Shown here piece by piece: positions 144-63,824 of a DNA stretch of 64,000 nucleotides. The first letter of the stretch is position 1. Every line of letters starts with the position of its first letter. Source of the DNA: Liolophura sinensis (lineage: Eukaryota; Mollusca; Polyplacophora; Chitonida; Chitonidae); the NCBI RefSeq assembly GCF_032854445.1, contig NC_088296.1, positions 14,698,623-14,762,622 on the forward strand, read 5' to 3'. A program made the translations under genes and the position numbers. Under the pieces are notes generated by a model. It worked only from the letters and a program-made list of their open reading frames with translations. It had not been told where the DNA came from and ran no database searches.

Positions 144-233
144 CTTGGTCCTCTTTTGGCGAAACGTTTGCCATGAGCTCTGGTGTCTTCGCCAACAAAA
201 TAGTCAGGGCGGGGATATTCCAGTGACCGGAAC
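144..233 (-). CDS. Gene A exon: distal cytoplasmic tail
   Basis: 90 bases between acceptor GGTATTTCCTTCAG and donor GTAATTATTT, phase 2-2, reading F-R-S-L-E-Y-P-R-P-D-Y-F-V-G-E-D and then a basic stretch. Its phase matches the 744 donor, which supports that weaker site. The Y-P-R-P segment aligns with H-V-P-R-P in the gene B exon at 21572-21619. The donor means that the coding sequence continues past the left end of the window. Confidence 0.7.
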
Positions 234-3200
234 CTGAAGGAAATACCATAAACATGTTATTGGACAGTTCATTCGTATGTGTCAGAAAGTATGTATCCTC
301 ACATGTATCAGGAGCACCTCACATGAATGAGGAAACACCTCACATGTATCAGGAGCACCTCACATGAATCAGGAAACACCTCACATGTATCAGGAAGCAC
401 CTCACATGAATCACGAAACACCTCACATGTATCAGGAAGCACCTCACATGTATTAGGAACACCTCACGTGTATCAGGAAACACATCACATGCATCAGGAG
501 CGCCTCTCATTATCTAGAACACCTCACATGTATTTGGAAGCCGCTCGACTTAGTCTTACTTTTTATGCGTAATTATCAGTTCGGAATACCTCTTCCACAC
601 ATTGTGAGGCAAACTTGGCCTTCGTCATTCCTTTGCAGGTCAAAGCAGCATATCGCAAGCCTTGAAACTTGATCAAACTTGAAATTTGAAAACTCGGTGA
701 ATTGTCTACTTTACTAACATAGGAATAGGGAATGTATACCAACCTGTCCTTTTCGTAAGCCAGCTGATCCATTCGCTCCCTGGCGATGACGTCAAGAACA
801 TCGTCTCGTGATGTGAGGTCACGCTCGTCAGGATCCAGGCGAAATGATGGGTTGTTATACACGTCATATCCTGAAGTCGCAGTTGGTAATGCCATCGAAT
901 GGTATGTTTGTCGGGTGTGTTCTGGGTAATAGTCATGTGACGTAAACGAAGGGTAGGCCGAGTACCCTCTGTGGGTGATCAGGGAGAATGGAATGGAAGA
1001 ACATTAAGTGGTTTTTCTTGGGAGATTAGAAACAAAATTAAATGTAGGTCACTGTGAACATAATCAGCTGTGTATATTCACAGCTTTATCTGTTTGGAAA
1101 CAACTTTAGGTGGTAAGAAACAAAAATAGGTGGTAGGGAAGCTAGCAAAATAAGGCTATTAGAAACATATTTATGTGGTTGAATTTATTTCTAGAAACAA
1201 TAAAAAGGTCGCTATGAGCAAAATTAAGTCCCGGGAACATTAATCTTTGTGCAACAGGAAACCGTTTTGTGGTTAAAGAGGGCAAACTGCTACTTAAAGA
1301 TCTACAATAGATTTGCATGAAGGTATTTTTTTATCTATTATTAGAACTTAAAAGTAAAGAAGTTCAAGCAAATGTGCCTGAAAATACATTTTGAACGCTA
1401 TTCCCTACAAGCCGTGAAGGTAGGATAATTCGCGAAAAGTAGGCGAATTAAAGTTCGAGGCAGGATCAATTTCGTCAAGTAGGCGAAATTAAGTTTGAGA
1501 CATATGAATTGAGACAAACAGGAGAAAAAAAAGAAAACAAATTACCTCACAGCACGGGTGTCCAGTGGATGCACGGTAGTTAGTGACGTCACATCCGTTC
1601 CGGCCGGACGTACAACTGTTTTGTCCGCTCGCCTGGGAAACAGAAAATAGCCAAGATTATGTTAGCTGTGTTTAAGTTTAAATCAAAATACCTTATAGAT
1701 GTAGAAAAATGTAGAAATGAATGAATGTAAACAACCAGCCAAAATAGGTTTATTTTTTGTATCTTTTTTTTCCTTTTCCTCCTGAGTAGTAATTTCAATA
1801 AAAAATTACAAACGCACACGTAGAACAAGGTGGCCCTGAAAAAATGCTTGTAAATTAAACAGGGTGGACAACTAATGATTTATTGAAATGTGAATCTACA
1901 AGGTAAAAATTACCAAACAACAAACTCAAAAAATTAATATGTTAATTTTAACAGAAAGCCTGTTGTCCGAGTGATTGTATTCTACTATTGCAACAAATAA
2001 ACTCAGCATAAAGGTTCTTTTAGACTAACACATTAATATGTTCAGTATGACAAAATACTGTGTTATACATGTAGTATCAGAATACATCCTTGCATCACTC
2101 AGACAAGACTCAGACTTTTCTGTTAAAATTAACAGGTTAATGTTTTGAGTGCATGTGTATAATTTAGCGCAAAATAAATGTATACATGTAAGCCGATGTA
2201 TATTGACAGGTATTTGCCTTTTTCTTACTTCTAACAAATACTTTACGTGTTTCCAAATGTTGTTATATTAGCACAGGTGAAAAGCTAGGTTTATGTTTAT
2301 TGCTTTCGTCAAGTCGCTATAGAAAGTTAAAGCAAAAACTTTGAAAGATAAAATCCAGTTCAACTGAACAAACAATCGCAAAAAAAATCTTAGTTTTGGG
2401 CCCAGTTATGTTGTTAAATGTTCTCACGGCAAGAGATCATTGAAACAAATATCCATGGTGTAATATTCGTGATTTTAAAAAGAGAAAACTTTCAAAACAT
2501 TTGAACTTTTAAAGAAAACACAACTTTTCATCTTATTGTGGATTTTAGCACGATTTTTTCCTGGGGAGTAATAGCAGACTTAACACAGTATTAATACTTG
2601 TAATAATTAATATTATTAAACGTGTATATAGCTTTTGTTGCACAGAGAGGTCCGAATTAGACTCCACTTGACGTTTGGTAACAAATCTAAGAATATCATT
2701 TTTTAAAGTTTGAATGAAACATGTTCGATTTCAATTAAAATTTTCCTTTACTTTTAATTTTAAAGAACCACTTTTCATTTAAAAGACTTGTAATCTCACC
2801 TTGTGCGTGAACGATTTTGCATAATACAAATACAGACGATGAGGGCAACAAGGATTATGAGTATAAATCCTCCCACTCCTCCAGTAATGCCGACAATGGT
2901 TACCTGCTCCTGCGAGAGGGTCGGGACAGGGGAACTTCGGGGAGGGGTCGTGGCGGCAGATACCCCTGGGAACAAGTGATGCAGAGCAATGCTAAAGAAA
3001 CTGTAACGAAGATTCCTTGCCGAAAAAAGTCAGTGGATTCGCATTTTCGTTATTATTTTAGTAAAGCCTAGATAATTACCTTACACATAAATGCCAGACT
3101 CGCCTGTGCACGCTTTACTGTTCAATACCCGTGATGAAATTCTTCAAAATTTATAATGTGGGCGGCTTTATAACTTTTCTTTTTCAAATTTTAGAATAAT

Positions 3201-4469
3201 TTCAATTATATTAGTACATGCCGTGTATGTTCGAATATCATGTTCTGAAAGGCAGTAACCCGAACTATTCCTGGTAAATGGTTTTTTCTTAAATGAGGGA
3301 AGCATAAACTGGAAAAATTTCCTTCCGGAAATATCGCGTTTGCCCTCATTACTCGTAAATTTTTTTTTCATTTTTAAAAAATAAAAAATGCCAGAAATAT
3401 TGCATTTGCCCTCATCATTCGTAAAAAAAATGTCTGCACCAAATCATGATGATAAGATAGAAGTGTTTGTATCAAATCTTCCCTTTATTCCGGTTGGGGA
3501 TTAACCTGTCCTTCACACACAAACCTCAAAACACTTTTCTAAAACGAAGTCTACTACATAATGAGAAAGAGTCATGGGTGGAGCGGGACATGGGAGTCAA
3601 ATACATTACTTGTCACCTAATCTGCATAGTTCTTGTGACAGGATAAGCCCTTGCCAGCAAGTTTGGCCATTTGCGATGACATCTTGAGGTAATAGTTTAC
3701 TGATCAATTCGGATATGGCCCGAATGTGCCCGACTCTGAGGCTGCTGGCTCGATACCCGCAGTTGCCTCAGGAAGTATTTTAACCAGTAGAATGTGTGCT
3801 ATGCCTAGAACGACCACTATAAATAACGAATAGGAGTGTTTTCCCCAGTGCGGTCGCTTTGATTTCAAGTCCAGCTCCTGCTCGAAACCTCTCCTGTAGT
3901 ATGCTGGAAGGGGTTCCATCAACCTGCGGACTTGGTCGTATAAGCAAAATATTCTTGAACACGGTTGAAAACTCCAATCAAAAACACAAAACAAAACAAA
4001 ATCAGTCCCCGGCCTTAAAGATAGAGTTTACCCCTTCATAGTTGTGTCTTGAACTTGAGTGAGAAGTGTCCATGGCCACTGAGTGGCCATTTGCACAAAC
4101 TAAAGTTTGTTCAACTCCACGCGTCCTTCACTAATCTTTGAAGTTCGTCAGAAGTTTGTATTTGGAAAAATGAAAAGATAATTAGACAAATAAATATACC
4201 AGGTATTTAATGAACAAATAATTAGAGCTCAATGAACAAGAAAAGGGAAAGAATCTCACTTTCACAGACTGGTATAGCTGCATTCCACTGTTTGTTACTC
4301 TGGCAGGTTAGAGTCGGGTTGTTGGGCGTCAGTTTAAGGCTATCCAGTGCGCATGTCAGCTTCACCGTTATTCCGACGGTTCGCCGGTAGTCGCTTAGCC
4401 GGGGTTCGCTAATGTTGTCAATTGTCAGAAGCGTCGGATTCTCAGTCAGATTGCTTAGTTTTGGACATT
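144..4469 (-). CDS. Gene A: sushi-domain single-pass membrane protein (partial)
   Basis: Five exons in a row on the minus strand, each with GT-AG borders and matching phase: 4469-4260 (sushi, phase 1-1), 2965-2800 (stalk and membrane helix, 1-2), 1632-1546 (2-2), 968-744 (2-2) and 233-144 (2-2). Joined they give one open frame of about 254 residues with no stop. The order is sushi module, Thr/Pro stalk, helix, then a long charged Tyr-containing tail, so the protein is predicted type I with an extracellular CCP and a cytoplasmic C-terminus. Sushi modules bind proteins or glycans in complement, adhesion and receptor proteins; the ligand here is unknown. The signal-peptide exon and any further sushi exons were not found, and the 3' end lies beyond the left edge because the last exon ends in a donor. 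I cannot match it to a named gene. Gene B, in the same orientation, is a paralogue. Confidence 0.82.
295..540. repeat. Minisatellite, ~21-bp unit
   Basis: About 11 diverged copies of a unit containing CACCTCACATGTATCAGGA, lying in the intron between the last two gene A exons. The unit length is a multiple of three, so the frame MRKHLTCIRSTSHESGN... stays open, but its repetitive Ser-His-Glu/Val content shows that it is an array and not a gene. Confidence 0.9.
744..968 (-). CDS. Gene A exon: cytoplasmic tail with Tyr motifs
   Basis: 225 bases, 74 codons, phase 2-2. Acceptor GATCACCCACAG, donor GTTGGTATAC (weaker than the others; reading through it would add about 60 residues and a stop at 563, an alternative 3' end). 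The tail includes S-F-T-S-H-D-Y-Y-P-E-H-T, GYDVYNNPSF and an acidic/basic C-terminal part rich in D, E and R. Y-N-N-P fits a Y-x-N SH2-type context and N-P-S-F an NPxF/Y-like sorting or PTB context; both are inferences. The first motif is shared with gene B. Confidence 0.78.
1546..1632 (-). CDS. Gene A exon: membrane-proximal cytoplasmic segment
   Basis: 87 bases between acceptor TTTCTGTTTCCCAG and donor GTAATTTG, phase 2-2. It reads R-A-D-K-T-V-V-R-P-A-G-T-D-V-T-S-L-T-T-V-H-P-L-D-T-R-A-V with no domain that I recognise. The phase joins the membrane exon before it and the 968-744 exon after it exactly. No equivalent exon was found in gene B. Confidence 0.72.
1924..2151. mobile_element. Tc1/mariner-like MITE, copy 1
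   Basis: About 228 bp with long imperfect terminal inverted repeats: left ACTCAAAAAATTAATATG followed by TTAATTTTAACAGAAA, right the complement ending TTTTGAGTG. It lies in the intron between the 2800-2965 and 1546-1632 exons of gene A. It matches the copies at 32515 and 42950. The flanking dinucleotide has drifted from TA to CA. Confidence 0.65.
2800..2965 (-). CDS. Gene A exon: stalk and transmembrane helix
   Basis: 166 bases between acceptor CTTGTTCCCAG and donor GTGAGATTA, phase 1 in and phase 2 out. Residues 1-20 are a Ser/Thr/Pro-rich juxtamembrane stalk (AATTPPRSSPVPTLS), a likely O-glycosylated spacer. The helix follows: VTIVGITGGVGGF, then ILIILVALIVCICIM, and a basic stop-transfer QNRSRTR. 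The G-I-T-G-G-V-G-G cluster is a small-residue packing motif shared in position with genes B and C. Exon length is identical to the matching exon of gene B. Confidence 0.85.
3855..4000 (+). mobile_element. SINE-A fragment (diverged)
   Basis: Keeps the head-proximal block TTCAAGTCCAGCTC, the middle CAACCTGCGGA, and the 3' block ATATTCTTGAACACGG ending near CCAATCAAAAA. It sits in gene A's intron between the sushi and membrane exons, close to the sushi exon. Confidence 0.7.
4260..4469 (-). CDS. Gene A exon: sushi (CCP) module
   Basis: Acceptor CTTTTCCACAG and donor GTGAGATTC enclose 210 bases: 2 + 69 codons + 1, a symmetric phase 1-1 exon as is classical for CCP modules. The peptide starts CPKLSNLTEN and ends with Q-W-N-A-A-I-P-V-C-E. 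Cysteines fall at exon residues 1, 39, 55 and 68 with the conserved Trp at 61, which is the C-C-C-W-C order of a sushi fold. Two N-glycosylation sequons (N-L-T at 6 and N-I-S at 18) fit an extracellular location. At 69 residues it is slightly long for a CCP; the extra length is in the first Cys-to-Cys span. Confidence 0.85.
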
Positions 4470-5420
4470 CTGTGGAAAAGATGGAAAGGTACGGATTTAA
4501 ATTATATTATTATATTACATGTGTACATTTATGGCCTCACTCGAATGTCATGTCAAAGACATGAGACATGACACCATTGACATCTACAGTTGACTAACAC
4601 AAAGCCGACCAGTAGGTGTCCCTTTAGGCTACGCATGTGCACTTGATGCACATGAGTCAAGGGGCCCCGATTTGATAACGCAGCCATACAGGTGACACTG
4701 ATGAGGGGACCAAATTTTAACTTCTATGGCCCAATAATAGTAGTAAGCCCTCAAATCGTATTGCAGATTTTAACGAAGGTCAAAAATGTTTCGGAACCAG
4801 GACTACTGTTTTGCACTTAGTCAGATCTGCTTTGGATTGGACTTAAGCTTTTTTCCTTTATAAAACTTCTTCCTTCACTTTCATGAAAACTGCTTAGATG
4901 GCCAAATGATTACAGTGTCCTCGGGAGGCGCGGGATTAAAGCCATGTCGGGTAGTACCAAAGACTTTGGAAATAGCAATTGTATCTACCTCCTTTGGCGT
5001 TCCGCTCTGAGGTTAAAGCAATGAAACAGGACTGGATGGGACTGTGTCAGTACAATTCAATTTGTTTTACCTTAGGGTTAAAAGTTTTGTTACCCTACTC
5101 CTTCTAAAATTTGGAACACCTGGTGTGCTCAATTTAGCCAATGCATATGTAATTTTAGCAGGAATATTGAGTTTCCTTTATCTCACATGGTTAAACCATC
5201 TAATGAACAATACACTCACATCTTTATTTGTCTACAGGCTGGTAAAGAAATGAAATATTCTACTTTCAATACTACTAATATCTGTCCCAGATTTTAGAAG
5301 AATTAGGGTTTTTACAGAATTAGATGCCAACAATGGTATGATTATTCGGGGCACATCTGTTCCACCTCATGTGTTAATGCATATAAAAAAATGCATAACC
5401 CATGCGCGGAATGGTAAAAG
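4470..5420. other. 5' flank or intron of gene A, no exon recognised
   Basis: Expected to hold intron upstream of the sushi exon. No second sushi module or signal-peptide exon was found on the minus strand. One short plus-strand frame (5044-5253) has no recognisable feature. Confidence 0.4.
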
Positions 5421-5424
5421 GTAG

Positions 5425-5552
5425 TACATCTGTAGACAGTAGTATTACATCTGTAGTCAGTAGTGGTAAATATGTAGCCAGTAGTATTACACCTGTAGAC
5501 AGTAATATTACATCTGTAGTCAGTAGTGTTACATCTGTGATCAGTAGTGGAT
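5425..5552. repeat. Minisatellite, ~21-bp unit
   Basis: Six diverged copies of a unit containing ACATCTGTAGTCAGTAGT with an optional ATT. The open frame over it (Ser/Val/Thr-rich) is a product of the unit length. Confidence 0.85.
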
Positions 5553-5667
5553 CAACAGCCTATAATCGGTCTACTTTGCATGTAACTTCTCGCCTACATT
5601 CAACTCAGCCCATGTTCTCTCGTCATTTATGTACGCAGGAAGGAATACACCAGCAACCTGTGCGTGG

Positions 5668-5752
5668 TGGCTGCTCCATGCCTAGTTTCTTCTCATCATC
5701 GTATATATGTGAAATATTGTTACCATGTAAAACTCCAATCAAATAAATAAAT
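5668..5752 (+). mobile_element. SINE-A 3' remnant
   Basis: Only the last part is recognisable: GTGAAATATTGTTACC..., AAAACTCCAATCAAATAAAT. Old and diverged. Confidence 0.5.
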
Positions 5753-5942
5753 ATGTCCATCTCTGTAAAATCGCTCATGGTCACTACCATGATATGTTAG
5801 ATGTACACGCTATTTTAAAGAAAAAAGACTGAGTTACCTTTTTTTCTTATTCCCTATGCTAAACTACAATATTATCTTCGAGAGACTTAATATAGGCCTA
5901 TATATTGCTCGATGCACCCACATGCATGTATATGGAGATCTC

Positions 5943-6093
5943 TGGCCCTACGTGGGAAGGTCTGCTAACAGCCTGCAGATGGTCGTGGGTTTGCCCTCGG
6001 GTCTGCCCGGTTTTCTCCCACCATAAGGCTGGCCGCCGTCGTAGAAGTGAAATATATTTGTCTACCGCGTGAAACACCAATCAAATAAATAAA
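5943..6093 (+). mobile_element. SINE-A, 5'-truncated
   Basis: Begins in the body at CCTACGTGGGAAGGTCTGC and ends in CACCAATCAAATAAATAAAT. The tRNA-related head is missing, the usual pattern of truncated retroposition. Confidence 0.85.
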
Positions 6094-6764
6094 TATATTA
6101 ACAATAGTGAATCCTGATGTCTGAAGTAAAATACAATGACGAATGGAGCAGAAATAAACATTCTTGTCGAGTTACCCACACCTACATTTATAAATTAAAC
6201 ACAGATGACTTAGGGGCGGTTTTAGTACATGTTTTGCAGATTTATTAATTTTGTTTGCTCTTGTAGGTGTAACCACGGTGCATACATCCGCTTGTATGGC
6301 GGACTTGCAAACGGTCTCTAATAAAAACATCTCTGTATTACGTGTGACCTGAGGTCACGAGAGGTGTTCACGAGACCTTAAAGTACAGGTGACTATTAGA
6401 GGTGCATGGTGCTGTTGTGGCCATTTGCGCGGCCTAACGTCTGTTGGAGAGCATTTGGCTTTTTCCAACTTAATAGGCACATAATATTCGCTAAATCAGG
6501 AAAGCACGTCAGTAACTTGACAAAAGCCCATAGTTTATTCCGCCCCAAAAACGTACTTTTCATCATATAAGGCAGTTTACGTGAGTATGGCCTCAGAGAG
6601 CAATCAGATCTATATATGAAGTCTGACTATTACCAATAGTAAAACACATTTCCATGCAACGCACATCAGCGAGTGATAGGTATAAAACAATACAACTTTT
6701 TTTCTCCTTTTAATAGTTCAAATGTTATAGAAATGGATATAAAGCACGAGACTAAAGAGAGGTG

Positions 6765-6880
6765 TAAAAATGTCCTGTGACAAGGAGGCACATTACACAC
6801 ACCACAAGTACTCCTTCGTCGTCATATGACTGAAAAGTTGGTAAGTTCGACGTTAAAACCTAAGCACTCACTCATAATTT
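6765..6880 (+). mobile_element. SINE-B 3' fragment
   Basis: Contains ACAAGGAGGCACATTAC, CTCCTTCGTCGTCATATGAC and a 3' end at TTCGACGTTAAAACC followed by ACTCACTCA. The same tail occurs at 16060, 40020 and, inverted, at 30880. Confidence 0.75.
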
Positions 6881-7574
6881 GCTTCCGCGTGAGAGAGATG
6901 AAATAGCGTAAAATCACCCCAGCACTGTTGTTAGCTTTATGCTCGTGATACATGACGTTCTAAAAGTACCACAAAACCTAGGGGTCATCCTAGAAGTCAA
7001 CTTGCTTGCGCAACCATTGGAATTTGATGCATGCTTTTCAGTCCGATGTGAACCTTTTTGTGACCCTGATTACGATCGGAGGAGTTTATATTTAGATGCA
7101 GCCTTACCACTTTGCTTTGTGCAAATAAAGGCTCGCAGATGACTTGCAATTGCCTTTCTTATATAAACATCAAAGCAGCTGTATGTCTGATCTCTAGCTG
7201 CAAAACAACTTTTACAGATCAGCACGCTGTCAGTTTATAAGGTCATGTGACACTTCTTTGGTGAACATTACTTAAGTGTGTTCTTGTTTCAGTCACGACT
7301 TGGCTGCTGTCTGTCTGCAAAACACTTCAAATACATCACTGGTAGGTATATGTTTAGATCTGGAACAGTCAGGTGAAAGTCTGACTGACTGATAGAAATA
7401 AGCACTGATGTGTGAATAGACACTGTGCCCTGAAACACGCGACTTGTGCTTAGGAATTCCCTCTCAGTTTGAAAGGTGAAATCGCCAAGCGTGAGATAAG
7501 TGATTAATGAAATCAAGACTTTTGTTTTCAGTTTTTTCTTTTCCATTTTTAGCTTAGACAAGTATCTCCTTCAG

Positions 7575-8285: not shown

Positions 8286-8474
8286 GGCGGCAAACTTGTG
8301 ACATCCTATCTTTCTTTATGGGCCATCCATTTCAATACATTGACCTGACTTAGCTTTTGGGAATTTCCGATGGATTTATTTGCGCACATGGTTTGCCATT
8401 TAGTAGATAACGTGTGGATATTTTTTCAAATGTAAATTCTTATAATATGTTTGACAATATAATTCTGCACACTA

Positions 8475-9190
8475 AATGAAACATTACACGATACATCGTG
8501 TATGAACATTGCACAATACATCGTGTATGAACATTACACGATACACTGGGTATAAACATTACACGATACATCGTGTATAAACATTGCACAATACCTCGTG
8601 TGTGAACATTACACGATACACTGGGTATAAACATGACACGATACATCGTGTATGAACATGACACGATACATCGTGTATGAACATTACACGATACATCGTG
8701 TATGAACATTACACGACACTTTGTGTATGAACATTACACGATACCTCGTTTGTGAACAATACACAATAGATTGGGTATGAACATTACACGATACATCGTG
8801 TATGAACATTACACGATACTTTGTGTATGAACATTTCACGACACTTTGTGTATGAACATTACACGATACATCGTGTATGAACATTACACGATACTTTGTG
8901 TATGAACATTTCACGACACTTTGTGTATGAACATTACACGATACATCGTGTATGAACATTACACGATACCTCGTGTGTGAACATTACACGATACATTGGG
9001 TATGAACATTACACGATACATCGTGTATGAACATTACACGATACTTTGTGTATGAACATTACACGATACTTTGTGTATGAACATTGCACGACACTTTGTG
9101 TATGAACATTACACGATACATTGTATATGAACATTACACGATACATCGTGTATAAACATTGCACGATACATCGGTATGAACATTACACGA
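8475..9190. repeat. Minisatellite, 25-bp hairpin unit, ~28 copies
   Basis: Unit ends in GAACATTAC and carries the perfect palindromic arm pair ACACGAT-AC-ATCGTGT. Variant units (ACTTTGTGT, ACACTGGGT) are arranged partly in a 75-bp three-unit higher-order repeat near 8805-8950. Minus-strand frames across it (MFIHDVSCNVHT...) are repeat translation. Confidence 0.93.
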
Positions 9191-11258
9191 TTAGACGGTT
9201 AGACAGAGTATAATAGGGTACTTCCAGTCCAAAGATTTTTCCCAAAAACTGGAAACTAGCTTTCTGGCTTATTATCTGGGAAAAGAACAAAAACGTGTGT
9301 CACCTATTAGTCAGAATAACGATTGTAACAAAGCATCCCGAAAAGTTCTCACAGATGTGACTGAAGCATTCTCTACGTGGTGTTAATCCATAATATCGTT
9401 AATTTATTTCCTCTTTGATCCCGTTTATTATATGTTGGATTATGACCACGCCTGTAAAGATGTACATTTCTTCCGTGTTGTAAGGATTATTATATTACAA
9501 GAAATATAACAGAATTCTTTCTTGTTTTTAACAAAACCTGTTCACGCATGAAGAAAGATTTTATCAGCTGATTGTAGGCTATAACACTCTGATTAGAGTT
9601 CAATGGTTTATGTCTAAAGGCTGGTGAGTCTATACAAGGGTCTCTACTACAAGGCCTACACTCTACTGCATATACACCTAAAAAAATTATTTTTAAGGAA
9701 GCCTAACAACAGAAATTCTTTACTGCGACTAAGCTGCAAATGCCAAGAGTGAAATTAACGTCAGGTAATTAAGTTTATTTAAACGTATGTATTGCAAACT
9801 GTATACTGTGAATTACACTGAAAAACGATTTCGACATATATTTTTAGTCAGTAAAACATAAAACCGAATACAAGTAACCTGTACTTACGTGCTATCGCCA
9901 TCTTGGACAATATTTTGCGGTTATCCCAACAATAAATATCCGGTTAAGTTTTACGACCGAAGAAGGAATGTCCGGGGCAATGATATGTACCAAGCGAAAC
10001 GTGTAAACACAACGGTAGTAGGATGGGCTTGATGACACTGGGAATGGGTACGCGCCTAAAGCTATGTGCAGATAAGTTCTAAGTTACGGTAACATATTCC
10101 AGGTGTAACTCTTATAAATTACTATATCTAACTGCGTGCATGACAAACTCCGATGGCCATCAGCTAAGGGCTTGGAGTCAGCAAGTTCGATGATTTGCTA
10201 AAGGTTGTATTCCAAAGATAGAAGTTCTCTTGAAGAATTCAGGCGTAGGAGTTTGGCGCTGATACCCGAGGGGAGAAAATTGCTCAGGTATGAACTCCCG
10301 TTCTCGACAGGTAAGATATAAACACGGTTACAGTCTGCAACTGATTTTTGTCCCACGGGGGCTAAAGCTGCATGATCTTTGAAAGTTCTTGTTCAGTGGT
10401 TTCGTCGGAGACGTCATACGGTGAATGGAATAAAACGAGCCTGCAGATGTGGGGTACTCAGACAACGCCCACCCAGACCTTTATGCCAGGCACAGACCTT
10501 AATACTAAAACGCTTATCCATGTGAGTCGAATACCGTTCTATTATATTTCAAAATAGACGTCAAGTCACGTATAATTAACAGCGATACCCACTCGTAGTG
10601 AGCCTCCTAGATGTGTCGGGTCAACCTACTCAAGGACTCGTGGTTAAAGCCAGCCGAAGTCTTTACCTATGTCATACGGGCATGTTCACTTCTTTTGACG
10701 CCGCAGTTGATGTAGTGTCCGGGTACAATAGCCTCATGGGTGTGACCGAGTTAGTCGGAATAGAGGTTTTCTATGATGTAAATTGACACAGGGCGTACAT
10801 ATAGTCCATGTATACACGGCTTACCGGATTAAACTAAAAACTTTGAATAAATAAAAAGACTTCATGCACACTGGGCCATGGGTATCTAATTTCGCTCCTT
10901 TTCTAGCGCCTGCGTCTTAACTAGTTACAGGTTTGGGTGAGAAAGTTAAGAAATTATTTCGTTAATCAATGGTCTGTGTATTCTATGATAATAATCATAA
11001 CTAACATCGCAATCGTTATCATTATCAGTATCGTAATGGACGTAATACATTGTTACATGCGTTGTTATTGCCGTCGTTTGTCGGCGTGTTGTCGTTGTTG
11101 ATTTTGATGTTGTTGTTATTATATAGTTGTTGTTGTAATAAATTTATTACACACCGCATTTTAGAATATCACTATTAGATAACAGGCACGTATGATAATC
11201 AGACCTGTTGTTGGAGAATTTTCGCAGAGGAACTACCTGTATTACAAGCTGGGATTTT
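9191..11258. other. No firm gene
   Basis: Unique AT-rich DNA without recognised exon, apart from the possible start exon at 9889-9901. Short plus-strand frames at 10372-10557 and 10598-10786 show no domain or splice support. Confidence 0.4.
9889..9901 (-). CDS. Possible first coding exon (M-A-I-A)
   Basis: On the minus strand CCAAGATGGCGATAGCAC is followed directly by an excellent donor, GTAAGTACAGG. The ATG has a good context (A at -3, G at +4). It leaves phase 1, the phase needed by gene A's sushi exon, but joining it directly would give no signal peptide, so another exon would be required. It could belong to gene A or be chance. Confidence 0.22.
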
Positions 11259-11259
11259 G

Positions 11260-12334: not shown

Positions 12335-12760
12335 GCGTGATAACTAGATAACTCTATACAGCGTCTTGCTTGGCGTGATAACATGGGAATGGTTTACAGC
12401 TTGATATCTGGTGTGATAACTGGGTAATTATTTAAAGCTTGTTGCGTGAGAATTACGCAGAGAGTGATAAGTAGGTAATTCTTTATAGCTTGCAAGGCGT
12501 GATGACTAGATACTCATTAACAGCTTACTACCTGACGTGTTTACTAGATACTCATTTACACCTTGCTGTATGGCGTGATTACAAGATACTCATTTGCACC
12601 TTGCTGTATGGCGTGATTACAAGATACTCATTTACAACTTGCTACCTGGCGTGATTACTAGATACTCGTTTACAGCTTGCTATCTGGCGTGCTTACTAGA
12701 TACTCATTTACAGCTTACTACCTGGCGTAATTACTAAATACTCATTTACAGCTTCTTCTG
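12335..12760. repeat. Minisatellite, ~38-bp unit, ~11 copies
   Basis: Unit contains GGCGTGATTACTAGATACTC and ATTTACAGCTTGCTACCT. Copies become more regular towards 12540-12750. Confidence 0.88.
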
Positions 12761-23797: not shown

Positions 23798-23837
23798 TTT
23801 TTTTTTTTGGGGGGGGGGTGGGGTGGGGTGGGGGGGT
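23798..23837. repeat. T10 then G-rich tract
   Basis: A run of T followed by G10 T G4 T G4 T G7. The four G runs form a textbook intramolecular G-quadruplex pattern on the plus strand, directly beside the 41-bp array. Confidence 0.9.
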
Positions 23838-24120
23838 TCAAGTAACTTGACAAATCAAGGGGAATACAATAACACGTATTCAAGTAACGTGACAACCTCG
23901 CAGAATACAATAACACGTATTCAAGTAACGTGACAACCTCGCAGAATACAATAACACGTATTCAAGTAACGTGACAACCTCGGAGAATACAGTAACACGT
24001 ATTCAAGTAACGTGACAACCTCGGCGAATACAAGAACACGAATTCAAGGTACATGACAACCTGGAAAAATACAATAACACATATCCAAGTCACGCGAAAA
24101 TCTCGGAGAATACAATAAAC
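23838..24120. repeat. Minisatellite, 41-bp unit, ~7 copies
   Basis: Unit contains CAAGTAACGTGACAACCTCG and GAATACAATAACACGTATT. The first copies are nearly identical and divergence increases to the right. Confidence 0.92.
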
Positions 24121-28794: not shown

Positions 28795-29600
28795 TTGTGA
28801 ATGAGTAGATAGCGCCTTGAATGAGTGCATGGCGCCACCAATGAGCACATAGTGCCTTCAATGAGTATACAGCGCCTTCAAAAAGATTACAGCGCCTTCA
28901 ATGAGCATACAACGCATTGAATGAGTATATGGCGCCTTCAATGCATATATAGCGCCTTCAGTGAGCACCTAGCGCCTTAAATGAGCATATACTGCCTTGG
29001 CAGAATATACAGCGCATTGAATGAGTATATAGCGCCTTCAATGCATATATAGCGCCTTGAAAGAGCATATAGCGCCTTGGGTGAGTATAAAGCTCATTAA
29101 ATGAGCATATAGCGCTTTGAATAAGTATATAGCGCCTTAAATGAACATATAGCGCCTTGGGTGAGTATAAAGCTCATTAAATGAGCATATAGCGCCTTCA
29201 ATAAGTATATAGCGCCATGAATGAGCATATAGCGCCATGAATGAGTATATAGCACCTTGAATAAGTATGTAGCGCCATGAATGAACATATAGCGCCTTGG
29301 GTAAGTATAAAGCTCATTAAATGAGCATATAGCGCCTTGAATAAGTATATAGAACCATGAATGAGCATATAGCGCCATGAATGAACATATAGCGCCATGA
29401 ATGAGTATGTAGCGCCTTGAATGAGCATATAACGCCTTCAGTCAAGCATACAGCGCCTTGAATGAGTATATAGTACATTGAATGAGCACATAGCTCATTG
29501 AATGAGCATATAGCACATTGAATGAGCATATAGCACATTAAATGAGCATATGGCGCCATGAATGAGTATATAGCACCTTGAATGAGTATATAGCGTCTTG
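28795..29600. repeat. Minisatellite, 20-bp unit, ~40 copies
   Basis: Consensus ATAGCGCCTTGAATGAGTAT with variant units carrying GCCATG or GCTCATTA. The longest array here by copy number. Minus-strand frames (MLIQGATYSFMALY...) are periodic translations. Confidence 0.94.
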
Positions 29601-30876
29601 AATGACCCCTAACGTACAGGTCATGGTGATCTGCATTATGCAGTTAAAGAGACATACACTTCGTGAAAGTAGCAATGGTTATAGTATTAAAGGGGAAACA
29701 TGTGAAATAGTCTATAGCTGCAGCATCCCACATAACGTTGATATCAATGCACTGAAGCCGCTCATTAAACGAATTAGTCATACTGAAAGCCCGATTGACC
29801 GCTCTACCGACAGACGGATTTACCACAACCCGACCAGCCAAAAGCCAGACAGACCGAGCTACCGACAGCCAGACTAAGCGACAGCCAGACCAACCGACTA
29901 GCAAATTTAAAGTGCCCGACGGGTTTATTCAAATAAATATAGATCGCAGAAATTACACAATGGGCATATTAAACAAAGTGAGACTGCATGGGATGATTAA
30001 AATGACCCCAACACTACATAAGTGAAAGGTGAAATCAAGAAATTCTTCCACGCCCATAGCACGCATGCGCAGAAAAATTGCATGTATACATGGGGATATA
30101 TTACCGACAAAAAAACTAGAGATATATCTAGCATATCCACTATTATATAACAGTCTCGAGATCTAATCACGTTATTGTAATAAGATGAGGAAATCAATTA
30201 TTTTGTATGGATGATTACATATAGGAAGTGTAATGCACCATCTCTTTTTAGAAACCGACGGAAAATTCCGTGAAGGACGCCCCTATTTCTCATAATCTGT
30301 TTACCCTAGTCTGATACACTAAAGTCAATGTGTACAACATGTAAAGCCAATATAACTTGCTCGGACATTCAATCATCAGGAGTAATGCATGCATCGGTTA
30401 TTTCCTGAAGCCTGATAATAAACGATTCAGTCTAATTGGAGAAGGTGTGTGAAACGCTAATTACCTCTGTGCCGTTAGACACGATGGATGGTAAGGATAT
30501 ATTATTATCCAAATCAGCAAATCTATTGATGACAGATAACGGATCAAGGACGAAGGCGTTTATGCAGTGTGCACATATTTATAAATGCTTTGTGTCTACA
30601 TGTTGAAGCCCTCTATTCACACTGAACTGAGCGGCTCTATTTCTGTTTTTTTCAATGGTTTAAAGAGACTATACGAACATGCTGGGGAAAACCCCGATCA
30701 AAAATAGCGGAACAATTTGATAAGACAATCGTATCATGTGAAGACAGTTTTAGGAATGAGAAACGATATAATATAGTTTCATGTCTTGTTTTGTAGACGA
30801 TTGACGAATGGCAATCCCCATGCGTATTCTCCATCATCTGAGTGGTTGTTGATAAATACATGCATATGTACGCTTT
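29601..30876. other. No gene recognised
   Basis: Includes a degenerate CCAGACxGACCGA-type simple repeat at about 29795-29905 which keeps short frames open on both strands. Confidence 0.4.
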
Positions 30877-31222
30877 TGCTTTAACGTCGTTCATAACAAT
30901 TTTTCAGTCATATGAGGACGAGGCATCGTTAGGTATGTGCACATATACTGTGTCGTCTTGTGACAAGACGAATCCATGCCACCAAAATGCTGTCGCCGTT
31001 GAAATAACATGCCGATGACACCAGACATGACACCCCTCCAAGTCACATTATACTGACACCGAATCAACACGTCCTGTTTCCTTGCTCTAACCTCCCAGTG
31101 CTCAGCGCCGTGCGAGTCAGGAAGACGTACCTATTTTAAGGTATTTGAAATGATCCGAACCTGGTTTGATCTTCCGACTTACAGGCGGACGTTCTAACCA
31201 TTAGGCCACCGACGTGTTCCCA
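30877..31222 (-). mobile_element. SINE-B, full length
   Basis: The only copy seen with both ends. On the minus strand it opens with a tRNA-like head, TCGGTGGCCTAATGGTTAGA then ACGTCCGCCTGTAAG and AAGATCAAACCAGG (A- and B-box positions), has the TCAGTATAATGTGACTTGG and GTGTCATGTCTGGTGTCA blocks, and ends at AACGACGTTAAAGC. About 346 bp. Confidence 0.85.
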
Positions 31223-32773: not shown

Positions 32774-33920
32774 TAGTATTTTGGGGTCATGTTTGGATGG
32801 TTTCCTCTAAACTGAACTCATAGGTTGTTCTACGTGACACAATACACTGGAGGCATTTACGTCGATTACCGCGTACAGTCATACGTTTGGTCCACCACCT
32901 ACAGGTCATGCATATTCATATCATTAGTATTAACAACCTTATACGTGCATTTTATAGCTTCGCGAGCCACTGTCCATTGCAGTAAGTGAGCTCTGTGTGA
33001 TCAATGAAAGATATAACCTTGACTAAAAATATCAAATAAAAACCATACTAAATAATGAAAGTCAGCACACGACTGTTTGCCCGCTAATGTGATCGGTACA
33101 TGCGAAAATGTACAGTCTCTAAAGCAGAATTAAGTTAATGCGACCTTGTCATTTGAACTCCCCAGCCAATCCGTTTGCAGCGCGACTAAACCTTATGAAT
33201 ATTCATAACATCATAATATGTACAAGAAAAGCAGTTTTGTCCGCCTCCATTCATAGATACGATATTCACCTGATTAATTTACCCATGTATTCAGGTGTTT
33301 TCTCATAAAGGCATTTATTTATTTATTTATTTATTTATTCATGAGTTTCTAGATTTAGTTATATACTTATAAGTTTTTGCTTATTTATCAGATAGTAAAG
33401 AATCTTTTATGCACAATACTTTTACTGCAAACACCTGACATGTGCTCTGGGTTTAATTGGGTCAGCGTCAGTAGCTGTTCTGTATGTAAAAATGAACAAC
33501 TGAGAAATATAGTTATAGTGAAAGTACGATATTAAATACATATACGTGCAAACACCACATAACGCGTGATTCTCTTAGGGAATACATAACGGTAATCTGC
33601 CAATCTATGGAACATAGTTTTTCGGGTTTTACAAAATGTATATGCACTAGCTAAACCTCACTATTATTAAGCTACTCGAGTTTAAACATGCTGGTTTTCT
33701 TAAAACATATCGATTATACTGACAGTTTTTAGCATAAAGCTCCCGGTGTAAGACGACATTTGGACACTATCGCTGTAACATCTTCTTGTCGTTGACACCC
33801 TTTGGAAGGGCGAGTTCTCAGCTTAACTCCAGTGTACGAAATGTAGCCCACATGTGGCTTAATGCGGTAATCTGATATGCAATGCGTACAGGTTCGCAGG
33901 AAATCAGTCGAGTGAATCAC
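32774..33920. other. No gene recognised
   Basis: AT-rich unique DNA with a (TTTA)n stretch at about 33310-33340. Confidence 0.4.
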
Positions 33921-34245
33921 TTTCTCAGACATGTGAAGCGCTTTTTCAGATAAGTGAAACACTTTCTCAGACAAGTGAATCACTTTCTCAGACAAGTGAA
34001 TCGCTTTCTCAGACAAGTGAATCACTTTCTCAGACAAGTGAAGCACTTTCTCAGACAAGTGAAACACTTTCTCAGACAAGTGAATCGCTTTCTCAGACAA
34101 GTGAAGCACTTTCTCAGACAAGTGAAGCACTTTTTCAGACAAGTGAATCGCTTTCTCAGATAAGTGAATCACTTTCTCAGACAAGTGAAGCACGTTCTCA
34201 TATAAGTGAAGCACGTTCTCAGACAAGTGAAGCACTTTTTTGAAG
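33921..34245. repeat. Minisatellite, 21-bp unit, ~15 copies
   Basis: Unit AATCACTTTCTCAGACAAGTG with TCACTT/AAGTGA arms able to pair as a small hairpin. Open frames exist on both strands over it because 21 is divisible by three: H-L-S-E-K-V/A-L/I heptads on the minus strand (frame 33729-34286, 185 codons) and V-K/N-H/R-F-L-R-Q on the plus strand. See findings. Confidence 0.92.
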
Positions 34246-43191: not shown

Positions 43192-43237
43192 TAACGTCGC
43201 ATTTCGAAACCTGCGTATTGCTACCGATTGCATATGC

Positions 43238-43525
43238 GTGGATGTGAATCGTGTGTCATCGCCTATATCGTGGATGTGAATCGTGTGTCATCGCCTATAT
43301 CGTGGATGTGAATCGTGTGTCATCGCCTATATCGTGGATGTGAATCGTGTGTCATCGCCTATATCGTGGATGTGAATCGTGTGTCATCGCCTATATCGTG
43401 GATGTGAATCGTGTGTCATCGCCTATATCGTGGATGTGAATCGTGTGTCATCGCCTATATCGTGGATGTGAATCGTGTGTCATCGCCTATATCGTGGATG
43501 TGAATCGTGTGTCATCGCCTATATC
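43238..43525. repeat. Perfect minisatellite, 9 x 32 bp
   Basis: Nine identical head-to-tail units, starting GTGGATGTGAATCGTG and ending CATCGCCTATATC, spanning exactly 288 bases with no mismatch seen. There are no spacers, so it is not a CRISPR array. Complete identity points to recent expansion or to assembly collapse or expansion. Confidence 0.95.
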
Positions 43526-53604: not shown

Positions 53605-53606
53605 TT

Positions 53607-55257: not shown

Positions 55258-55258
55258 T

Positions 55259-55850: not shown

Positions 55851-56001
<151 letters not shown>

Positions 56002-57802: not shown

Positions 57803-57805
<3 letters not shown>
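56002..57805. other. No gene recognised
   Basis: Nothing supportable; a weak minus-strand ATG-GCA-TAT-AG|GTAAGG near 56415 could be chance. Confidence 0.4.

Positions 57806-57807
<2 letters not shown>

Positions 57808-57875
<68 letters not shown>
57808..57875. repeat. (AT)n microsatellite
   Basis: Alternating AT, about 68 bases. Confidence 0.97.
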
Positions 57876-57880
<5 letters not shown>

Positions 57881-58570
57881 AGTGTAAATAAAGTGTCTAT
57901 TGGAGAAAATACATTCTCAGCAGTGATACTGTATACTGTTAGTACACGGCACGGTCCCGTTGGACGGCGTAATGGAAAACCTGTGTAGGTGTATCGGTTA
58001 TCTTGTAATATCTTTTTATGTCGTTATGCATGGGTAAACTTATATGAATAAACTAAGCTTTACACATGCAAATTTCAGCGTTGACAAAATCACTGTATCG
58101 CAAAATATAACAAAGCTTATCAAACGGAGAACATAGAGGGGGTACTTACATATAAGTTCTGCAGAAGAAACACATTTGTTCAGAGGGCACTTAGAGCTTT
58201 TCATATAAAAGGGGAATATAAAAGCACTACGATGTACTTCTAACTTAGTGCTGATCCATTTATATAAATGGTGACGCATTTTTGTTCACGCGAGTAATTA
58301 AGAAAGAAATAAAGTGGCAAAGTAACTGATAAGCCTGTTAAAAGATCGGAGGACAATTTTTGAGCATGTCCATGTAATAGAATAAAGGGTATGATATATT
58401 GCAAAATCAAAATCTGTCCTCAAGTATTATACGTGCGTTGATGTAACTAAACCCGACGGTGCATCTAATTTCAACTGCCACAGGCCACTTGTGTGACTCA
58501 GTATGTGTACATAAGTACATTACACTAAGTTTGCTTAGCTTCAGTTGCATTTTACCAGTATTGCGGATGT

Positions 58571-58573
<3 letters not shown>

Positions 58574-58644
<71 letters not shown>
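58574..58644. repeat. (AT)n microsatellite
   Basis: Alternating AT, about 70 bases. Confidence 0.97.
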
Positions 58645-58646
<2 letters not shown>

Positions 58647-61604
58647 ATTTTGTCAACGCAACAAAAGCTATTTGTTATATACTTTTATGCAAAGGTGCTT
58701 CATCCGTAGAGGTAAATTGTCTGTGTAGGGGTACACAATAGATATCTGGATACATGCAGGTATTCTTTGTTTTGGACGGTCTAGGCGTATTGGTCTCATA
58801 TTTTTTTTGCGTAACTGTTTTGGAGATGTGATAAAGCGAAATGCAACAACAACGCACTGATTTATTTCGTGTACTAGACTACTTTCGATTATTTTACGTT
58901 TTTTCTGTGTTTTGGAGGCTACAGTCGTCTATTTTGTCGCTGGAAAGACAAAGTAACAGAGGTGCTATAAAAATTCATACTTTTGGCATTTACGATAGAT
59001 CCCTTATAACACAGATGTATATGTCTTATGATTTATGATTTATGCTACATATACATGCAGATGCCTGCAAAGATATCAGCGTAGTTATGATCGCATGCTG
59101 GTTTAAAAGAAGAAAAAAAAACGATCAGATTTTTTTTCTTGGGATTCACAGATCTACTATTTGTACTGTACTCTTTGACCTCGATCCAATTTTTAAGCTG
59201 CCAAACAAACGGGTTGGCACACAATCGAATGAGCACTTTGTAAATGTATTAAATTGGTCATTTTTGACAGTCAGCCCACAAGGAGAGATCAACACAGAAA
59301 GAATATTCCCAAATTACAAAGTTAGCTGTCACGTGATTTGGTGCCCTGCATGATGAAAACTGCTATATCAATCGGTAGGCCTGTATCCAGTTAAGTCCCG
59401 TTCATAGGATACGAATTGTAGTACCAATTTATAGCGTTCGATTTGCAGTGTTCCACAAAATTTGCATGTAAAATAGTCGCATGCGACTTGTCTTGGATAT
59501 AGGGTTTTTCTCGTTTAGTCCCGTTGCTAAGGCCTGGCGTTCTTGTCAGCACGTTTGTCATGATGAGTTGTTGACTGTAATTTCCATGATGTGTAATTTA
59601 ATAGTAGATCTTGCCAGGGATAGTAAGCAATACATTGCTCGGTTTCAGTGAGCGGTACACCAGGCTGCTTTCTCTCCACATTACACTTGTTTTGTTTTAC
59701 TTATGTGATACTCAATCTATAGATTTATGGTAAAGTTGTCGTTATTTGTAGGGAGTTTTAATTTCGAGTCAAAATCTTTTGTGAGAGTGTGGAACAGCAA
59801 ACTATATTTTATGTGCACGTGTGCATGAATATAATATTAACCATAGTGAGGTATTTTCCATGCGATAAACAGCTCTGTTTACGTGTGGGGCATCTAGTGA
59901 GCTGACCTATCGGTCGGTCAATTTTTATGACATCTCATTTCTTCACCCGAGTAAGACAGTCGCATCTTGACATTTTATTATTTAACACGTGTTGTTCGTT
60001 TAACCAGGGACCTTGATGTAAGACGACATCGACGTGCTTGGGAATATTGCAGCAGCTGCGAGTTTGCAGTTGCTTTTGTCCTATATACATCGTATATCAG
60101 TATACAAAACCAGTTGGATGCATATGTATAAATTTGTGATGCATTTAAAGGCGTACGGCGTAGAGGGTAAAGCGAGAGTAGCGACGATTTTGTGATAGCT
60201 GGCAAATGATCACACGTAACCGGTGAAATTATTTATAGGACGGGACTGGTCTAGAATTAGGAAAAAACACTGTGCTGTGATCAGATTTTACGTGGAGTAA
60301 CGTTAAAACAGTGGATGGGGACTAGACCTCTCGGAAATGCTTTGCCCACCGGTATAACTTTGTTTTATGCGGGAATGCAATATCATTACTCATGCACATA
60401 GACAAATAGCATGCGCAGTAGAGGATGATAGGCTCTCGTAAACACACCATGTGTATTTTCGCAAAAATAGCTCTACATAAAAAGAACACTTTGCAAAAGA
60501 AAGTTGAGATTGCAAATGTTATGCGTTTTATTATTTTGTTGTCTGAGTGCTCACATGTAATTGCAGGTACGCTGTGGTGAGGTCACGGATCTGGGAAAAC
60601 GTTAATTCTCTGCAGTTTAAAAACCACATTTCCTGGCCGAAAACTAATTTCCGTGCGTAATGAGATATCATATGCATTATATCCATTTCCTGTGAATATT
60701 AAATAGCCTGTGCTAGTCATCACACAGGCATGGAAAATCACAAAAGCACGGATACTTCTTTATTTACTTCATTGACACCGTTAAAATTATGACTTATGAA
60801 AAACTGATATCCCAGTGGGATGATACGACACCAAGCGGCGATGTTCGCATGATTGATTAACATTTCACGCATTATACGGCAATTTGCTAAGTTTTTTTTT
60901 TATCTATCTTTTCCCACCGCTTTATATTTTGATTTTTGCCCCTCAGCATCCAGTAAAACTTTGGATTAACTGCAGAATTATTATTCATTGCGGACCTCCG
61001 GAAGCACAGCCGATATGATCCATCTCTACGCAGGTGGCGGATTATCAGGAAAAGTAGTAAATTGTGGAAGACTGCGTATATTATGTATAGAAAAGATAGA
61101 AAACAAAGATATGAGATAAACATGACAGATACATGACAAATGTGATCAATTATGATTTTCTGACACCAATTTGACTTTATTTTTAAGGATCACAGATGTC
61201 TTTCTAATTAGTCATGCATGCAATAAAATATGACTGTTCATTCCCACTGAGTTACCCTCATATGCGGCGCATATTTATATATTTATATATTTATTGCATC
61301 GCTTTCTGATGTCTATCCTGATGTTTCATCTCTGTTCCATACAGACCTTTCAAAAGTGAGCAATTTGAGTGGTTTTAAGTGATAACCATGGAAACAATTG
61401 GTCGGGTAGAGGGTAAAAATATCACGAGACTTAATAAAACTAAGTGTCAACCGATACAGACAGGATTCAGTAGTGTGGTTAAGAGAATAAATGAGAATTA
61501 TAAATCAGTATTTTCACCCTAACCCTGCCCAGCGCTCAGATCACTCCCGACATGCACACTTCATAGGAAACAGAGTATACCTCTTTAATATCAATATAAA
61601 GGAC
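58645..61604. other. No gene recognised
   Basis: Several 60-100 codon frames (for example 59042-59353) without domains or splice support. It may be intergenic DNA upstream of gene C. Confidence 0.4.
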
Positions 61605-61605
61605 T

Positions 61606-61764
61606 GTTTATTTATTTTTTTGATTAGTGTTTTACGCCGTTTACAAGAATATTTCACTTATACGACGGCGGCCAGCATTATGGTGGGAGGAAACCTAGCG
61701 CAGCGCGGAAGAAATCCATGACCATCCTAAGGGTTCTGGCATCTACCCACGTACGGCCGGGGAG
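61606..61764 (-). mobile_element. SINE-A 3' half
   Basis: TTTATTTTTTTGATTAGTGT, ACGACGGCGGCCAGCATTAT and CCACGTACGGCCGGGGAG on the plus strand, truncated before the head. Confidence 0.88.
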
Positions 61765-61904
61765 TATAAAAGACTAGAACAAACTGATTAAATTCAGAAC
61801 AACGACAACGACGTCGTAGCTGGCAAATGATCACGTGTGATTTCTTAAATCCGGCGTCTGGTCAGTTTTCCTCCCATGTTAAATTATTATTGTCCCAATT
61901 GTTT

Positions 61905-62357
61905 GGACGTATGGAGCTACAACAGCACTCTGGCAACTTCTGTAGACGTATGGAGCTACAAAGGCACTTTTGCACTCGTGTGAGATATGGAGCTACAACG
62001 CCATTCTGGCACCTGTGTGGACGTATGCAGCTACAAAGGCACTTTTGCACTCGTGTGGACGTATGGAGCTACAATGGCACTGGCATTTTGTGTGAACGTA
62101 TGGAGCTACAAAGGCACTTTTGCACTCGTGTGGACATATGGAGCTACAACGGCACTCTGGCATTTTGTGTGAACGTATGGAGCTACAAAGGCACTTTTGC
62201 ACTCGTGTGGACGTATGGAGCCACAACGGCACTCTGGCATTTTGTGTGAACGTATGGAGCTATAAAGGCACCTTTGCACTCGTGTGGACGTATGGAGCTA
62301 CAACGGCACTCTGGCATTTTGTGTGAACGTATGGAGCTACAACGGCACTCTGACAAC
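61905..62357. repeat. Minisatellite, dimeric ~77-bp repeat
   Basis: Two alternating monomers: one of 38 bp (CGTATGGAGCTACAAAGGCA then CTTTTGCACTCGTGTGGA) and one of about 39 bp (CGTATGGAGCTACAACGGCA then CTCTGGCATTTTGTGTGAA). Frames on both strands over it are artefacts. Confidence 0.93.
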
Positions 62358-62402
62358 ATATGAAACTCTCGCGAGCTTTACCCGCTAGGAACCTGTCATG
62401 TC

Positions 62403-62568
62403 TTACAAATGTAGCATTGCTTCTCAGTATTTAGCATTGCTTCTGACAATTTAGCATTGCTTCACAGTATTCAGCATCGCTTTTCAGTATTCAGCATTGC
62501 TTCTGACAACTGAACAATGCTTCTGACTATTAAGCATTGCTAATGACTACAACGCATTTAGCATTGAT
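62403..62568. repeat. Minisatellite, ~20-bp unit, ~8 copies
   Basis: Copies of TAGCATTGCTTCTGACAATT with TCAGTATT variants. Confidence 0.88.
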
Positions 62569-63035
62569 TGTGACTGTTACTGTCTTTTGTGTGTGTGTTT
62601 GCACGACGCTGTAGCTGAACTGAATGCCAAAGGATCTGAATGTTTTGCGAAAACTCCTAAATGTGGGCACCAAACATGACATCCGATCGACCCACCTCCA
62701 CACTGTGCCTTTTCCCTTAGTCACCAAGCTTGACTAGGAGAAATATATCGGGTTTGCTCCTATCGTGCTTAAGCACGGCTCTTCGCCGCTTTGACCGAGG
62801 CGAGGCGTTAAACTAGAAAGCTGGCTCAATATTACCGAAAACAAAAATTCACTCTTAGCGGCTTATGGATGGCTGAGTGTCACATTGTAATTTCTCCTTC
62901 CCCCACCCCACCTAATCAAATATATAGGTGTTAGCCAATAATCACACTCATAAGCTTATGGGAGGTTCTCGAATCGAGTGTTCTTGGGTTCGCTTAGTTG
63001 TTTGCTTTTGTGTATTCTTATCTGTCTTGTTTCAG

Positions 63036-63188
63036 CGTGCCCGGCGCTGAGAACGAATGCTGACATTGTTTCACGGACCCAGAGGGCAGTGACTTACAGA
63101 TGTTCCCGAACAGTCGAGGTCTTGGAAGGGAGTAAGACGCTGTTTTGCACAAACGGAACTTGGAGCGGTCCTCCGCCAACATGTAAAG
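63036..63188 (+). CDS. Gene C exon: sushi (CCP) module
   Basis: 153 bases (2 + 50 codons + 1) between acceptor TCTTGTTTCAG and donor GTAAAGCAC. It starts CPALRTNADIVSRTQR and ends N-G-T-W-S-G-P-P-P-T-C-K. Cysteines at residues 1, 22, 37 and 49 and Trp at 42 fit the sushi pattern closely, including the W-S-G-x-x-P-x-C ending. One sequon (N-G-T at 39). Shorter than the gene A module and nearer the standard CCP length. Confidence 0.9.
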
Positions 63189-63824
63189 GTAAAGCACGGC
63201 GAAATCTTCCAGTGATTGTCACATTCGTTAACTTATTTTAGAAAAGAATGCAAACTTTTCATATCACATTTATATACACTAACGTGGAGAATTCCCTTAA
63301 ACGCAAAACAAGTATGAGACTATAGATACTTGTCATCTAATTCCGTTTTACCATAAGGTTTACAGAAATCCGAATGCTAATAGAAAAGGAAAGTGTAGAC
63401 ATATGTCGCAAAGTATAGTGCGCCTAACGATAAATTTGCTTCAGTTATGATTAGTTTACACATGCATGCAAATCAGTGGAAACGTAACGTGCATAATACA
63501 TGCAGGCGATAGTACAAGACTTCAATCGTTTCAATAAACGCGTTGGTCATTACAAATTTAACCGGCCAAAGTTTAAAATCTTTTTGGGGTGCGTTATATT
63601 AATGAAATGTCATCGTTTTCAAATTCTGTATTCACGGTTTACGCTGTTCCAGATATCGGAGGACTCTCAGAAAGGGACATCACTATTATATTCGGCATCG
63701 TAGGTGGCGCTGCGGGTCTGGCGGCCATCGGGATATTCATCGGGCTTCTTTTTATGGCGTGCTACAGGAAAGACCGGGCTAATCGATACAAAAGCGATAT
63801 CATGGCAATGAACATCAGGAACGG
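63036..63824 (+). CDS. Gene C: sushi-domain single-pass membrane protein (partial)
   Basis: Two phased plus-strand exons: 63036-63188 (sushi, phase 1-1) and 63653-63824 (stalk and membrane helix, 1-2), separated by a 464-bp intron. The phases and order are those of gene A, so the three genes share one ancestor. Gene C points the opposite way to A and B and lies about 40 kb from B. The stalk is much shorter (about 8 residues). The signal peptide exon upstream was not found, and the cytoplasmic exons lie beyond the right edge since the last exon ends in donor GTAGGT. Likely a type I surface protein with unknown ligand. Confidence 0.85.
63653..63824 (+). CDS. Gene C exon: stalk and transmembrane helix
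   Basis: 172 bases (2 + 56 codons + 2), acceptor ACGCTGTTCCAG, donor GTAGGTTTTG. After GGLSERD the helix reads ITIIFGIVGGAAGLAAIGI and FIGLLFMAC, then Y-R-K-D-R-A-N-R-Y-K-S-D. The I-V-G-G-A-A-G-L cluster matches genes A and B. It starts the cytoplasmic tail with basic residues as expected for a stop-transfer. Confidence 0.87.

Follow-up and report, generated by a model that had tools for sequence, protein, structure and literature searches.

Three loci in a 64-kb stretch of chiton DNA (the whole stretch, 14698623-14762622 of scaffold C2, hereafter the window) each contain a predicted membrane-spanning exon, and the question that they raise is whether they belong to one family of receptor genes or are unrelated genes with a common layout. 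The original prediction had described them as three paralogous sushi-membrane genes with one conserved exon-phase plan and had suggested a lophotrochozoan source. The source is indeed a chiton: the assembly was first published as Liolophura japonica (PMC11068029) and was corrected to L. sinensis (PMC12441733). We scanned both strands of a 264-kb region and searched the genome of 609 Mb in 632 contigs. The exon classes that had been predicted are present at genes A and B on the minus strand and at gene C on the plus strand, ten exons in total, and the three membrane-exon lengths (166, 166 and 172 b) and their phase, 1-2, proved correct. The sushi exons of A and C are phase 1-1 by frame and splice sites, and the phase 2-2 assignment of the tail exons holds in A (three exons) and B (two exons). 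These exons, and all further exons and junctions given below for genes A to G, are predictions read from the DNA; negative window coordinates lie to the left of the window.

4469-4260, minus strand: gene A sushi exon, 210 b, phase 1-1; Pfam Sushi score 21.9 bits, splice sites and frame
2965-2800, minus strand: gene A membrane exon, 166 b, phase 1-2; found by the hydrophobic-core scan, matches the gene D membrane exon
1632-1546, minus strand: gene A tail exon 1, 87 b, phase 2-2; frame and splice sites
968-744, minus strand: gene A tail exon 2, 225 b, phase 2-2; contains YNNPSF, weak donor GTTGGT
233-144, minus strand: gene A tail exon 3, 90 b, phase 2-2; contains YPRPDYF
23141-22976, minus strand: gene B membrane exon, 166 b, phase 1-2; hydrophobic-core scan and shuffle comparison
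22480-22118, minus strand: gene B tail exon 1, 363 b, phase 2-2; its single match in the genome is itself
21619-21572, minus strand: gene B tail exon 2, 48 b, phase 2-2; contains VPRPIVD, weak donor context
63036-63188, plus strand: gene C sushi exon, 153 b, phase 1-1; Pfam Sushi score 25.7 bits, groups with generic sushis
63653-63824, plus strand: gene C membrane exon, 172 b, phase 1-2; hydrophobic-core scan
64446-64514, 64859-64975 and 66307-66366 (right of the window), plus strand: likely gene C tail exons, all phase 2-2

Gene A has a fourth predicted tail exon (309 b, phase 2-2) to the left of the window. The membrane exons were sought on both strands of the 264 kb as open segments between AG and GT, 100-250 b long, that combined good splice sites with a hydrophobic core. 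Nine segments over all phase classes passed, and the 1-2 class consisted of exactly A, B and C, at thresholds placed just below the scores of B and C; a slightly higher setting missed these two by rounding. A looser scan returned 31 segments, ten of them 1-2. Among these ten were the membrane exons of A, B, C and a further gene, D; the others used alternative acceptors of B and C or, in three cases, came from two places around 103-104 kb.

The absence of further members had been named in advance as an observation that would count against a family. We found D to the left of the window and three more genes, E, F and G, on the same scaffold, 9.6-13.5 Mb from the window genes and with a derived sushi and the same 1-1 / 1-2 plan.

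-28812 to -38714 (29 kb left of the window), minus strand: gene D, sushi exon 204 b (1-1), membrane exon 148 b (1-2), 2-2 tail exons
Scaffold C2, 1.209 Mb: gene E, sushi exon 213 b (1-1), membrane exon 175 or 181 b (1-2; two possible same-phase donors)
Scaffold C2, 5.119 Mb: gene F, sushi exon 225 b (1-1), membrane exon 163 b (1-2)
Scaffold C2, 1.183 Mb: gene G, sushi exon 201 b (1-1), one 1-2 membrane exon

Only Sushi reached its cut-off among the Pfam families. Against the curated Sushi (PF00084) cut-off of 20.7 bits, A scored narrowly over, and C, D (34.7 bits), E (30.7), F (25.6) and G (28.6) also passed, all six with four cysteines and a tryptophan. Matches below cut-off were to HRM for E, F and G, and to a few membrane-segment models for the membrane exons of A and C. 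A profile built from 17 sushis of the same genome placed only A, C and D above the inclusion threshold in the 264 kb. The prediction of three sushi-membrane genes therefore stands for A and C; for B, neither the Pfam search nor the 264-kb profile scan returned a sushi exon, none was found in the ~38 kb upstream of the gene, and with no such exon in reach B is not established as a sushi gene. In every gene read except B, a single 1-1 sushi exon precedes the 1-2 membrane exon, so that in A, C, D, E, F and G one predicted sushi adjoins a single membrane span. An AlphaFold model of the A sushi, with the C sushi as second row, had a pLDDT of 38 and was useless.

We also searched upstream of A, B, C and D for signal-peptide exons or further extracellular 1-1 exons, did the same in the 1.4 kb upstream of E and F, and looked for a common upstream peptide; each search returned chance-level pieces only. 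Since no signal peptide or other ectodomain exon was found, the ectodomains of A to F may be incomplete, and an ectodomain larger than one sushi may exist. One candidate for a shared ectodomain exon, a segment encoding CTYTVSSC, was rejected as a dispersed DNA repeat, being alike in several frames and on both strands and carrying a stop in one copy; it is a trap for exon hunting in this region.

38121-37864 (minus strand), 30842-31015 (plus strand) and ~11824-11735 (minus strand): copies of the dispersed CTYTVSSC repeat

Agreement of exon phases across the three loci had been judged very unlikely by chance. This part of the original prediction fails, because elsewhere in the genome sushi and membrane exons usually have these phases as well. 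When the eight top sushi matches elsewhere were examined, all five that could be scored were 1-1 (two of the five being neighbours on one contig); the other three were unscorable, two lying inside long open frames and one having no clear acceptor. For membrane exons, we used the seven weak genome matches of the D exon as chance-matched controls: five were 1-2, of which three are apparent near copies with weak donors, one was 1-0 and one had an uncertain start. A published statement that does not mention sushi holds that every domain type dispersed through exon shuffling in animals is of class 1-1 (PMC8001218). Thus, while all six sushi exons read across A to G are 1-1 and all seven membrane exons are 1-2, so common a plan is no mark of a family, and support for a family comes from sequence similarity and not from phase. 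The case shows that intron phases which agree at sushi and membrane exons, as they commonly do in extracellular modular genes, are weak evidence of kinship.

The membrane exons were compared by shuffling, with outer part, core and inner part kept apart and 1000 shuffles per pair. The A-D pair scored 102 (z 7.2, 0/1000 shuffles), B-C gave z 6.4 (0/1000), D-F z 5.3 (0/1000), D-E z 5.0 (0/1000) and A-C z 4.5 (0/1000); A-B scored 65 (z 4.2), which was reached in 2/1000 shuffles. Only these six of the 21 pairs among A to G had at most 2/1000 shuffles, and the other 15 had 5 to 256/1000, among them A-E (58), A-F (129), E-F (162) and E-G (256). The control exons were again drawn from D's seven chance matches (all seven in the phase comparison, four in the membrane-exon comparison and six in a further shuffle comparison), and since they were picked as the best chance matches of D, they are biased towards D and its relative A. 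Against the four unrelated membrane exons, B and C reached z of at most 2.9, A z 2.8-5.4 and D z 5.0-6.0; two of the four reached the A-B score when compared with A (72 and 66), and none reached that of A-D. The A-D, A-C and B-C pairs accordingly stand out from the controls, A-C from C's side only, and A-B does not rise above A's best controls. In a search of the 609 Mb, the D membrane exon matched itself and then A at E 5.9e-6, the other seven of nine matches having E 0.15-0.53; no sushi passed in the 3.1 kb around each of these seven, which were on that ground set aside as unrelated. A genome-wide protein search with the C membrane exon returned itself alone.

Kinship among the sushis was less even. 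The A sushi matched itself, and D, E and F were the best three of five further matches (E 0.125, 0.133 and 0.305, all weak), each followed by a 1-2 membrane exon. Searches among A, D, E and F were individually weak (E-values 0.13-1.5), and for the D and E sushis, generic sushis of other chromosomes were matches equal to or better than that of A. The best further match of the F sushi was G (E 0.0067, 51%). A search with the C sushi (20 matches) found no other match on scaffold C2. In shuffles that also move the cysteines, so that any two sushis would do well, eight of ten pairs gave 0/300, A-C gave 7/300 and C-D 40/300. A tree of 23 sequences, in which the six sushis of A, C, D, E, F and G stood with 17 generic ones (11 of the 17 from one locus) in a short alignment, separated A, D, E, F and G from the rest with UFBoot 85 (usual threshold 95) and joined A with D at 92; the C sushi sat among the generic sushis and not with A. 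The spacing from the first to the second cysteine was 36-44 in A, D, E and F and 31 in G, compared to 23-33 in the 17 generic sushis and 21 in C. Of the generic sushis, 15 of 17 carry a Gly-Tyr or Gly-Phe after the second cysteine, a pair that A, C, D, E, F and G all lack; it is thus missing from all five sushis of the derived branch vs. two of 17 generic ones. With moderate confidence, we place A, D, E, F and G in a branch with a putatively derived sushi, apart from the generic sushis of the genome.

Elsewhere in the genome, canonical sushi exons form dense groups on scaffolds C13 (6.3-7.9 and 29 Mb), C7 (37.4 and 58.5 Mb), C6 (22.7 and 71 Mb) and C9 (8.1 Mb). In this canonical scan 239 candidates were returned and 150 matches scored, all of the latter on scaffolds other than C2.

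Long predicted tails extend over 2-2 exons in A, B, C, D and F, and partly in E. In C, D, E and F the choice of tail exons relied in part on a composition score that had been trained on these same tails, and the exon ends are for that reason less sure than those in A and B. An NPx[FY] motif occurs in the tails of A, C, D and E and is absent from B and F as far as these were read; composition shuffles gave a chance of ~1e-4 for at least four of six tails with the motif, which was chosen after the tails had been seen. A PRP motif is common to the tails of A, B and C. The tails are otherwise mostly unalike: 13 of 15 pairs had 71-457 of 500 shuffles at or above their score, including A-C (278) and B-C (193), and the lowest counts were those of A-B (8) and A-F (12). 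Genome-wide protein searches with A tail exon 2 and B tail exon 1 matched only the exons themselves.

The claim of a local family of receptor-like proteins is therefore borne out in part: membrane-exon sequence and the nearby gene D favour it, and the missing sushi of B, the generic sushi of C, the barely similar tails and the usual phases weigh against it. We think it probable that A, B and C belong to separate genes in a small, diverging cluster of type I single-pass receptors with D as a fourth, that A and D form a derived-sushi branch with E, F and G, and that the tails would recruit adaptors. The less probable reading that comes nearest to it, unlikely as we judge it, is that the receptor genes A, B and C are unrelated and have just the widespread extracellular-module and membrane-exon layout in common, A and D being the one true pair. 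It would explain why the phases are so ordinary (5/5 scorable sushi exons 1-1, 5/7 chance membrane exons 1-2), why the C sushi falls among generic ones and B has none, why the A-C and B-C tails do no better than shuffles and why the A-B membrane exons do no better than A with two of four unrelated ones. It does not readily account for the B-C and A-C membrane scores, which B or C did not approach with the unrelated exons, for the position of all three genes inside 64 kb, or for an NPx[FY] that also occurs in C and a PRP in all three window tails.

Two further alternatives concern the nature of the genes. B, with a membrane exon, two open 2-2 tail exons and no sushi exon in the ~38 kb upstream, might be no independent gene but an alternative cassette of membrane and tail exons, or else a partial copy, borrowing the ectodomain of another gene by splicing; we hold this to be very doubtful, as both genes are on the minus strand with B upstream of A, which puts A's sushi out of its reach by ordinary cis-splicing, and the gap could also be due to long introns or a divergent ectodomain. 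The proteins could instead be membrane-bound complement regulators or synaptic CCP proteins and not signalling receptors, which we consider improbable. Complement regulators have several sushis and short tails, unlike the single-sushi, long-tailed proteins predicted here. Compared with solved structures, a profile made from the sushis of A, C and D did give its top matches to complement receptors, CD55 and factor H, but these would be expected to lead the list for any sushi profile. That invertebrate CCP proteins act at synapses (PMC9083331) is a further point in favour of this alternative. We conclude that the small cluster of putative receptor genes is real, with a wider predicted family on one scaffold; exon anatomy, sushi domain, membrane span and kinship are shown at the level of sequence, with A, B and C as a probable family and C as a possible close paralogue of A.

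If the favoured reading of a diverging receptor cluster is correct, at the cell surface the sushi would bind a ligand, either a protein or a glycan, the NPx[FY] motif (A, C, D and E) and the many tail tyrosines would recruit PTB-domain or clathrin adaptors, and ligand binding could lead to internalisation or signalling. The strong divergence of tails and sushi loops suggests a ligand or partner of its own for each copy. A recognition or adhesion role is plausible for these putative receptors.

Known sushi proteins resemble the chiton genes in part. SEZ6 and CSMD are type I proteins with several CUB and sushi domains and an NPxY-type tail motif; orientation, sushi and motif are alike, and the several CUB and sushi domains contrast with the one sushi found here. 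SUSD3 and SUSD6 have a single-sushi layout. Likened by description only, these vertebrate proteins have a sushi, a single membrane span and a cytoplasmic tail, as do the chiton genes; we know of no NPx[FY]-like tail motif and no tandem cluster among SUSD genes. The SUSD family is described as six proteins with one or more CCP domains and a membrane span in all but SUSD1 (PMC9083331). The allorecognition system of fester and uncle fester in Botryllus is also likened by description only: one sushi exon (exon 5) together with membrane exons and a partial local duplicate recall the chiton genes (PMC3549757). Fester differs in that three membrane spans are predicted for it and that some of its exons match no known domain. 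The most far-reaching proposal, a chiton-specific, chromosome-linked family of fast-diverging single-sushi receptors whose tails recruit endocytic or phosphotyrosine adaptors, forming an immune or allorecognition-like repertoire independent of tunicate fester, is a long shot. Should the family prove real and restricted to chitons or to molluscs, it would add a receptor class to the little-studied immune and adhesion repertoire of chitons. A literature search at the level of titles and beginnings of abstracts, with most subscription journals outside its scope, found no description of the family, and A to G look like ordinary yet undescribed recognition or adhesion receptors.

The flanks and the window also contain repeated DNA. 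To the left, at ~-100000 to -77600, two stretches ~15-16 kb apart have many peptides in common, mostly at 65-100% identity, and are likely a recent duplication; one of them contains an open frame of ~1050 codons at -84000 to -87149. A second left-flank pair (~-60200 to -58200 and -48200 to -46600) has many near-identical peptides. Within the window, tandem arrays with units of ~20-80 b lie at 297-533, 8480-9191, 12496-12754, 23837-24118, 28798-29605, 33904-34238, 43232-43525 and 61904-62349, of which the 32-b array at 43232-43525 is 99% uniform.
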